DNA from: Roseobacter insulae
GTDB taxonomy: Bacteria > Pseudomonadota > Alphaproteobacteria > Rhodobacterales > Rhodobacteraceae
NCBI RefSeq assembly: GCF_019375555.1
Contig: NZ_JAHXDN010000002.1
Span: forward strand, 434,001-498,000
Direction of reading: 5' to 3'
Length of the DNA: 64,000 bases
In this document: piece after piece, positions 27,479 through 42,435 of the stretch
Position numbering within the stretch: the first letter of the stretch is position 1
How the letters are laid out: every line of letters begins with the position of its first letter
Translations under genes and position numbers: made by a program
Notes under the pieces: model-generated
The model's input: only the letters and a program-made list of their open reading frames with translations
Told to the model about the DNA's origin: nothing
Databases searched by the model: none

Positions 27479-27889
27479 CTAGGGGCAATACTCTGCCTGC
27501 GGCGTCGTGGTGTTCTTGCCCCGGGCGCAGAGGTACTGCACGCCCGCGTCAGAGACATAGTACCGCGCGCCGTGCTGCTGCACGATGACCCGGTAGTTCT
27601 CGCCCGCAAGGCTGTCGTCCAGATACTCCCGTAGCTTGAAATCAAACACGTAGCCCTGTGCCGTCTGCTCCACAATGAGTGAGATCTTGCTGTCGCCGAC
27701 AGTGGCACCCACAAGGCTCAGAAAATCATCCGCCAGTGCAAAGGGCGTCTGACTGGACAGATCGATCTTGGGCAGCTCAATGGCGCGATACCCTTCCAGC
27801 AGATGGGTATCGGCCATCGCGCCGGACGGAAGTGCCAATGCAGCCATGCAGGCCAGGCCGGTCAATAGTTTACGCGTCTTTGGGATCAA
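27479..27889 (-). CDS. Exported protein of unknown function, partner of the amidase gene
   Basis: The 136-residue protein has a signal peptide (KLLTGLACMAALALPSGAMA, cleaved near residue 27) and a mature domain of about 110 residues ending in YLCARGKNTTTPQAEYCP, whose two Cys may be bonded. I recognise no family. It overlaps the end of the upstream amidase gene by 20 bases, so the two are translated together. A small periplasmic protein coupled to a cell-wall amidase could be an immunity or targeting factor. That is inference from layout. Confidence 0.7.
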   Translation of the reverse strand: MIPKTRKLLTGLACMAALALPSGAMADTHLLEGYRAIELPKIDLSSQTPFALADDFLSLVGATVGDSKISLIVEQTAQGYVFDFKLREYLDDSLAGENYRVIVQQHGARYYVSDAGVQYLCARGKNTTTPQAEYCP

Positions 27890-41630: not shown

Positions 41631-41668
41631 TAAAAAAAAGGCGACTCCCGGGAGGTGGGAGCCGCCTT
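41631..41668 (-). terminator. Terminator of the DUF1127-CcsR transcript
   Basis: On the minus strand a 12-bp stem (AAGGCGGCTCCC with GGGAGTCGCCTT, one G-U pair) is followed by eight T. The loop carries CACCTCCC, a degenerate copy of the array motif. The G-U pair shows that the RNA is read from the minus strand. Confidence 0.93.
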
Positions 41669-41681
41669 CTCGTATCCGCCT

Positions 41682-41709
41682 CAAGAAGCAGGGAGGAGGA
41701 AGCTTCTTG
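41682..41709 (-). ncRNA. CcsR-like hairpin 5
   Basis: A perfect 8-bp stem (41682-41689 with 41702-41709) displays CCUCCUCCC (complement of 41691-41699) in the loop of the minus-strand RNA. It is the last unit before the terminator. Confidence 0.8.
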
Positions 41710-41750
41710 GACGTATCGCGGCAGGCCTTGCGGCCCGAATAAAAAGGGAC

Positions 41751-41781
41751 GGTGACATCTGGGAGGAGGATAGATGCCACC
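41751..41781 (-). ncRNA. CcsR-like hairpin 4
   Basis: A 10-bp stem (41751-41760 with 41772-41781, including one G-U pair in the minus-strand RNA) exposes CCUCCUCCC (complement of 41761-41769). The stem sequence differs from the other units while the loop is conserved. Confidence 0.8.
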
Positions 41782-41790
41782 GCCTTACGC

Positions 41791-41821
41791 AGACGCCCCA
41801 GGGAGGAGGAAAGGCGCGCCT
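41791..41821 (-). ncRNA. CcsR-like hairpin 3
   Basis: The loop again reads CCUCCUCCC (complement of 41801-41809). The stem of 41791-41799 with 41813-41821 contains one G-U pair and one mismatch, so it is less perfect than its neighbours. Confidence 0.75.
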
Positions 41822-41900
41822 GATCTTGGTTCCCTGCCGGACCCGAAAGAAGGGTCTGAAGCAGGTGCTCACGTCATCCCGCGAGCTGGAATTCGTGCGA

Positions 41901-41926
41901 CGACATCAGGGGAGGAGGAGATGTCG
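41901..41926 (-). ncRNA. CcsR-like hairpin 2
   Basis: A perfect 7-bp stem (CGACATC, 41901-41907, with 41920-41926) presents CCUCCUCCC (complement of 41910-41918). Between this unit and unit 3 lies a separate spacer hairpin (GACCC/GGGTC, 41840-41856) without the motif. Confidence 0.8.
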
Positions 41927-41936
41927 CCGCGAAGTG

Positions 41937-41968
41937 TCACGCGTCCTAGGGAGGAGATGGGCGCGTGA
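41937..41968 (-). ncRNA. CcsR-like hairpin 1 (next to the DUF1127 gene)
   Basis: A perfect 7-bp stem (TCACGCG, 41937-41943, with 41962-41968) holds CUCCUCCC, one base shorter than in the other units, in a longer loop. It starts about 12 nt after the DUF1127 stop codon on the same strand. Confidence 0.75.
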
Positions 41969-41980
41969 TCCCGAACAGGC

Positions 41981-42217
41981 TTACTTGCCTGTGTGCGATT
42001 GTGCCGCTTCGTATGCCAGACCTCTGATCATGGACCGGCTGAGGCCCAGATCGTTCAGTTCGCGGTCGTTCAGACCTGCGAGCTCATTGTATGTCTGACG
42101 GTAGACACGGTAGCGTGCATAACGTTGTGCTGCTGCATTCAGCAGGGATGCGGTGGCGGCCAGGCCCCGTTCAATCAGGCTGGCGGTCGCTGTGTTCGTA
42201 TGTGTGTAATAGGCCAT
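41981..42217 (-). CDS. DUF1127 small protein, CcaF1-like
   Basis: The 78-residue protein ends in the DUF1127 motif (YNELAGLNDRELNDLGLSRSMIRGLAYEAA), preceded by an Arg/Tyr-rich helix. In Rhodobacter sphaeroides the DUF1127 protein CcaF1 is encoded immediately upstream of, and co-transcribed with, the CcsR sRNAs, and acts in RNA turnover under stress. The same order is seen here. The ATG at 42217 has GAGG nine bases upstream. The call rests on motif plus synteny. Confidence 0.88.
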   Translation of the reverse strand: MAYYTHTNTATASLIERGLAATASLLNAAAQRYARYRVYRQTYNELAGLNDRELNDLGLSRSMIRGLAYEAAQSHTGK

Positions 42218-42260
42218 GATGTTTGCCTCGTGTTCTTGTTCATCTTCGTGTTGTGACCGT

Positions 42261-42288
42261 TATGTATGCTTATGCTGCACTTGCACAA
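42261..42288 (-). promoter_or_regulatory. Candidate promoter of the DUF1127-CcsR operon
   Basis: On the minus strand TTGTGC and TACATA are separated by 16 bp, ending about 45 bp before the ATG. In R. sphaeroides this operon is driven by heat-shock-type sigma factors, so the real elements may differ. Confidence 0.4.
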
Positions 42289-42435
42289 TAGACAGCTCGA
42301 CAATGCTGCTATGCAGCAATTGCATGGGCGACCTAGCGTAAATTTATGCGTGCCGCTATAGGGTTAGGCAGTTGGAGAGCTTACATCCCGTTAGCGGAAA
42401 CAGGTGCTGGCAAAAGCGGCGCACGTGAGGAGAAA

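Follow-up and report, generated by a model that had tools for sequence, protein, structure and literature searches.

The closest described counterpart of the locus analyzed here is the ccaF1-CcsR1-4 operon of Rhodobacter sphaeroides (RSP_6037; RF02791; CIN1), with which it shares a small DUF1127 gene followed by tandem two-hairpin units with CCUCCUCCC loops, a Rho-independent terminator and a single upstream promoter, the latter being predicted from sequence in our case. The R. sphaeroides promoter is described as RpoHI/RpoHII-dependent (PMC10253847), the RNA as consisting of two stem-loops (PMC3927594), CcsR1-4 as targeting the flhR mRNA, and CcaF1 as binding RNA and working with RNase E (PMC8307010, PMC10253847). 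The NfeR1/alpha-r14 sRNA of Sinorhizobium (RF02344) likewise presents CCUCCUCCC-loop hairpins with variable stems and a promoter containing an LsrB site, TGCA-N6-GCAT, and its anti-Shine-Dalgarno (aSD) motifs silence ntrB (PMC10746234). Unlike the locus described below, however, NfeR1 is a separate 123-nt RNA of three hairpins with its own sigma-70 promoter. The regulator family, a similar operator box and the kinds of targets, namely DUF1127 proteins and aSD-type sRNAs, are also shared with the VtlR/LsrB regulons of Brucella, Agrobacterium and Sinorhizobium (AbcR sRNAs, DUF1127 genes). In those regulons, the sRNAs are described as genes distinct from the regulated DUF1127 genes, whereas here both belong to one locus, and this in Rhodobacterales. 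LsrB has been stated to be found only in Rhizobiales (PMC11975290, 2025).

Our analysis considered a 64-kb stretch of Roseobacter insulae DNA, referred to in its full length as the window. We read its locus as a CIN1-type ccaF1-CcsR (cuckoo) locus, whose transcript, presumed to be stress-responsive, would give rise to two-hairpin aSD sRNAs and whose activation by an LsrB/VtlR-type regulator is probable. We place the probability of this reading at roughly 0.8, because RF02791 matches three times in a row, a DUF1127 gene lies upstream, the locus occurs in every genus member tested, its stems covary, promoter and array are linked, and a gene for the regulator is present in the genome. The locus itself is a real and well-formed CIN1 locus of an already known type, extending the system studied in R. 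sphaeroides to a genus of the Roseobacter group; the interest lies in its promoter.

Anatomy and strand of the hairpin array

The features of the locus are collected in Table 1. The minus-strand sequence and a stem search place, directly 3' of the DUF1127 gene at 41635-41968, a terminator hairpin preceded by five stem-loops whose loops are (C)CUCCUCCC, such that a short DUF1127 gene (78 aa) and CcsR-like RNAs directly downstream of it on the same strand, both hallmarks of CIN1, are found together. Four of the six loops are exact CCUCCUCCC, one is CUCCUCCC and one is CCACCUCCC, the degenerate terminal copy and the variant first copy being differences from R. sphaeroides. The DUF1127 protein is 82% identical to that of a congener over the aligned 60-residue C-terminal part. 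A DUF1127 search of plasmids matched nothing. The first-pass annotation of this DNA, which had described the gene, the five minus-strand stem-loops and a terminator with a degenerate loop copy in the CcsR/cuckoo layout known after ccaF1 in R. sphaeroides, thus read the anatomy correctly.

Table 1 Features of the locus and of related elements. Positions refer to the window unless a contig (C) or another locus (L) is named.
Feature	Position	Strand	Evidence or remark
Putative LsrB/VtlR (LysR-type) operator 1, CAATTGCTGCATAGCAGCATTG region	42300-42321	-	contains TGCATAGCAGCATTG at 42301-42315
Putative LsrB operator 2, TGCAAGTGCAGCAT = TGCA-N6-GCAT	42272-42285	-	overlaps -35
Predicted core promoter, TTGTGC-N17-ACATAA	42260-42288	-	inferred from position and conservation
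DUF1127 protein, 78 aa, CcaF1-like	41981-42217	-	Pfam PF06568, E 1.4e-15
Hairpin 1 (unit 1)	41937-41968	-	loop CUCCUCCC
Hairpin 2 (unit 1)	41897-41930	-	loop CCUCCUCCC; RF02791 match 41892-41971, 27.9 bits
Motif-free hairpin A, between units 1 and 2	41867-41886	-	folding; position kept across genus
Motif-free hairpin B, between units 1 and 2	41833-41865	-	folding; position kept across genus
Hairpin 3 (unit 2)	41790-41822	-	loop CCUCCUCCC; RF02791 match 41744-41825, 48.4 bits, E 1.1e-9; covariation
Hairpin 4 (unit 2)	41748-41784	-	loop CCUCCUCCC; covariation
Third motif-free hairpin	41722-41737	-	folding
Hairpin 5 (unit 3)	41677-41713	-	loop CCUCCUCCC; RF02791 match 41633-41717, 31.8 bits
Hairpin 6 = intrinsic terminator (unit 3)	41635-41671	-	degenerate loop CCACCUCCC, then U run
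LsrB/VtlR-like LysR regulator gene (L259), outside window	C10:639813-640715		reciprocal best match
L127 box promoters	L127: 2549, 2773	-	pattern match

The RNA of the array is assigned to the minus strand, as first proposed, because the folding energy of 41633-41971 on this strand (-156.3 kcal/mol) lies far below that of shuffled sequences (-118.9 +/- 5.8; z -6.5), while the plus strand of the same region reaches a z of only -1.3. Chance hairpins can be ruled out: as compared to the five motif hairpins found, 2000 dinucleotide shuffles of the region gave at most one per shuffle (seven shuffles had one), and the genome's 20 other CCTCCTCCC sites are mostly stemless, with two reaching -6 kcal/mol or better. 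The five are also the sole motif hairpins within the 64-kb window. A second cuckoo locus was not found in the genome, the two extra RF02791 matches (E 0.43 and 0.83) being devoid of motif hairpins. Directly after hairpin 4, within 41741-41784, stands CCCUUUUUAUU, a U run that not all congeners keep; together with this hairpin, it could form a partial internal terminator behind unit 2.

We aligned unit 2 from 17 genomes of the genus. In this alignment, 90.8% of the cells are paired, and two-sided changes occur in 11 of 24 pairs (5.3 in shuffles, with none of 500 shuffles as high) and number 29 in total, as opposed to 9.6 after shuffling. Sliding the partner strand lowers pairing to 32-48%. Hairpin 4 alone has 98.6% of its cells paired and two-sided changes in seven of 13 pairs. 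The loop is thus the conserved unpaired element, while the stems are free to vary from unit to unit as long as pairing is kept; the stem covariation in related genomes on which the first-pass annotation had staked its proposal is, indeed, observed.

These data bear on two other explanations of the array. Were it a mobile or low-complexity repeat (REP-like or CRISPR-like) devoid of any regulatory role, one could understand why the motif recurs at short intervals and why arrays such as that of L163 were recently duplicated in tandem, but not why only one locus exists in the genome, why the promoter and gene context is fixed across the family, or why orthologous stems covary; this explanation is largely refuted already and carries almost no weight. 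The array could also be a stability or termination element in the 3' UTR of the DUF1127 mRNA, acting only in cis. Its strong terminal hairpin and dense structure would suit such an element, yet an unpaired loop is conserved while stems differ between units, arrays are known without a DUF1127 gene (see below) and the R. sphaeroides relatives act in trans. We consider this very improbable, and retain the CIN1-type reading.

Units and copy number

The Rfam model RF02791 (CcsR1) is 83 nt long and comprises two hairpins, and the spacing of the loops in the window follows the same division, with 39-41 nt inside a pair and 70-109 nt from pair to pair. The CcsR unit is the hairpin pair, and the window contains three such units, i.e., six hairpins. 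This corrects the counting unit: the first-pass statement that R. sphaeroides has four copies and the present locus five set single hairpins against pairs, since each of CcsR1-4 comprises two hairpins. As four CcsR RNAs amount to about eight hairpins in R. sphaeroides, the window, with six, has fewer. A further difference from R. sphaeroides is the pair of motif-free hairpins that separates unit 1 from unit 2. All of the 16 genus loci have motif-free hairpins at this position; almost without exception they form a tandem pair, with unrelated sequences, and in 10 of the 11 loci tested they fold with a z no higher than -2.2. As an idea only, this pair may represent a former unit whose loops have been lost; the count would then be back at four.

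It should be noted that the best match in the window, at 48.4 bits, lies below the RF02791 gathering score of 65.3, and the array is therefore not filed under RF02791 proper. As 0 of the 59 genomes searched reach this score, the model is narrow. The NfeR1 model (RF02344, ar14) matches 41634-41788 (E 3.5e-5, 41.6 bits), with a further match of 24.6 bits, both below its gathering cut-off of 58.8.

Each of the 19 genus members searched has the locus, with 3-6 hairpins per locus and six in about half. In most congeners, the sixth, terminal hairpin keeps CCUCCUCCC, which has decayed to CCACCUCCC in the R. insulae window. Across Rhodobacterales, arrays span 1-16 hairpins, and the number in the window is thus ordinary. 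The longest arrays, with 16, 15, 13, 12 and 12 CCUCCUCCC hairpins, belong to L141, L159, L057, L146 and L167, respectively, while L163 consists of near-identical tandem units, pointing to array growth through tandem duplication.

The promoter and its putative operators

Upstream of the DUF1127 gene we found a conserved promoter pattern, TGCATRGCRGCATTG-N10-12-TTGTGCA-N3-GCAGCA. Putative operator 1 agrees in 13 of 15 bases with the VtlR box published for Brucella, CAATGCAGCCATGCA (PMC12595884), when that box is read as its reverse complement, while putative operator 2 has the form of the LsrB site in the S. meliloti NfeR1 promoter (PMC10746234). Among orthologous loci, which were gathered with the RNA model and not with the box, only one of 30 lacks the upstream box; 24 of 29 have a perfect TGCATRGCRGCATTG, and TTGTGCANNNGCAGCA is found in 27 of 29, mostly 10-12 nt after the box. 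LysR-type activators usually have two sites arranged in this way, the first some 20 nt ahead of the -35 element and the second overlapping that element. The box at 42300-42321 falls outside the interval 41631-42288 to which the first-pass annotation was confined. That annotation was thus right about layout, strand, covariation, terminator and the aSD nature of the loops, but wrong about copy number, and it missed the conserved upstream operator.

When used alone to search genome contigs, the promoter pattern gave at least 116 matches, and among the 80 matches listed, the names are those of Rhodobacterales or of unspecific alphaproteobacterial or proteobacterial MAGs. After 81 pattern sites, we found two or more motif hairpins in 66 cases, one in seven and none in eight, seven of these eight having less than 510 nt of sequence remaining. 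The exact pattern occurs in 86 of 198 genomes of the family, where a reversed-pattern control gave 0 matches, and in two of 190 genomes of the class, both Rhodobacteraceae. Single box matches, on the other hand, mean little, as an exact 15/15 VtlR box at 27836-27850 of the window lies inside an ORF, in a coding signal peptide (GLACMAALAL), and was taken as chance. Other exact matches, at C1:1036615 and C13:356803, were also rejected, as they are not followed by a TTGTGCA site and overlap opposite-strand ORFs.

In two loci (L106 and L163), the box runs straight into a CCUCCUCCC array and DUF1127 is absent. In L127, the first box precedes an RNA of two hairpins that has a terminator of its own, and the second precedes the DUF1127 gene; L131 resembles it, although its sequence ends early. 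Such arrangements are relevant to the proposal that the main role of the hairpins is to sponge up an RNA-binding protein (e.g., the DUF1127 protein), with the loops titrating the protein and so providing operon feedback. Many identical loops on unrelated stems would be expected of a sponge, and in R. sphaeroides the co-transcribed RNA-binding DUF1127 protein affects CcsR maturation (PMC10253847) and CcsR levels fall with excess CcaF1 (PMC8307010). Box-driven arrays nonetheless exist without a DUF1127 gene, even if other DUF1127 proteins may act in trans, and the loop, noted at first pass as anti-Shine-Dalgarno-like, is exactly complementary to the Shine-Dalgarno sequence, while published relatives pair with mRNAs. 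A sponge as the main function is thus unlikely, and the CIN1-type reading, with aSD sRNAs as products, is preferred.

With regard to the sigma factor, the -35 element in the window contains the TTG that RpoHI and RpoHII both require according to their logo (PMC3441632). The -10 element is CCATCTT or CCATGTT in several other genera, while in the genus Roseobacter it is ACATAA, AAATAT or similar, with no clear match to the RpoH logo. As the -10 is not RpoH-like in this genus, control by heat or singlet oxygen, a notion carried over from R. sphaeroides, should not be assumed here. The LsrB/VtlR-like operator pair may be a further difference between the present locus and that of R. sphaeroides.

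A candidate regulator and the proposed mechanism

The genome encodes, outside the window, one LysR-type protein that is LsrB/VtlR-like. The trxB-adjacent LysR regulator of another family (L226) finds this gene at E 1.1e-59 (next gene, 5.5e-33), while R. leguminosarum VtlR scores 611 against it (next gene, 365), with 41 of 57 residues identical in the HTH part. The closest solved structure is a LysR regulator, PDB 9hh1 (E 1e-71). Each of the 35 family genomes searched contains one counterpart, with 59-100% identity. The regulator's best match lies directly beside trxB in nine genomes of other families, and the gene order in R. leguminosarum is lrp-trxB-VtlR (VtlR being the NCBI name). In R. insulae itself, trxB (C17) is adjoined by lrp but by no LTTR, which is a point of synteny and not a property of the protein. 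The LTTR tree does not resolve how the branches within the LsrB/VtlR group are ordered, and three long-branched paralogues lie near this group.

Taken from sequence comparison, this evidence speaks against the confinement of LsrB to Rhizobiales. The conserved promoter predicts a redox-linked regulator of the LsrB/VtlR class over these operons across Rhodobacterales, and this candidate link to CcsR-type operons appears to be new. We lean towards the more specific proposal that the single-copy LsrB/VtlR-type regulator directly activates both the Rhodobacterales ccaF1-CcsR operon and the box-driven CCUCCUCCC arrays without DUF1127. Operator and regulator gene together offer a testable link between two bodies of work that have so far stood apart, one on CcsR/CcaF1 in Rhodobacter and one on the regulation of aSD sRNAs and DUF1127 proteins by LsrB/VtlR in Rhizobiales. 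If the proposal is true, the circuit in which LsrB/VtlR controls DUF1127 proteins and aSD sRNAs would be of ancient alphaproteobacterial origin.

The mechanism that we propose begins with one promoter, presumed to be stress-responsive, which the LsrB/VtlR-type regulator would probably activate by binding to the paired upstream operators, the sigma factor being either of RpoH type or the housekeeping one. The resulting transcript would encode the DUF1127 RNA-binding protein and carry a 3' UTR of six aSD hairpins. By analogy with published relatives, from which we infer both processing and target pairing, RNase E, aided by the DUF1127 protein, would cut this 3' UTR into two-hairpin sRNAs, the CCUCCUCCC loops of which may pair with Shine-Dalgarno sites resembling GGGAGGAGG in target mRNAs and so lower the translation or stability of these targets.

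In a genome search for possible targets, GGGAGGAG-N3-10-ATG was found at 14 sites, as compared to two for the reversed pattern, although this control is weak, since Shine-Dalgarno sequences are purine-rich by nature, and two of the 14 sites are the CcsR locus read backwards. Candidate targets include TRAP DctQ, TRAP DctP (C11:319749), FadL-type porin and response-regulator genes. In the DctQ gene (G000:C2:45141-45160), GGGAGGAGG lies just 5' of the ATG, presenting a nine-base perfect complement to the loops.
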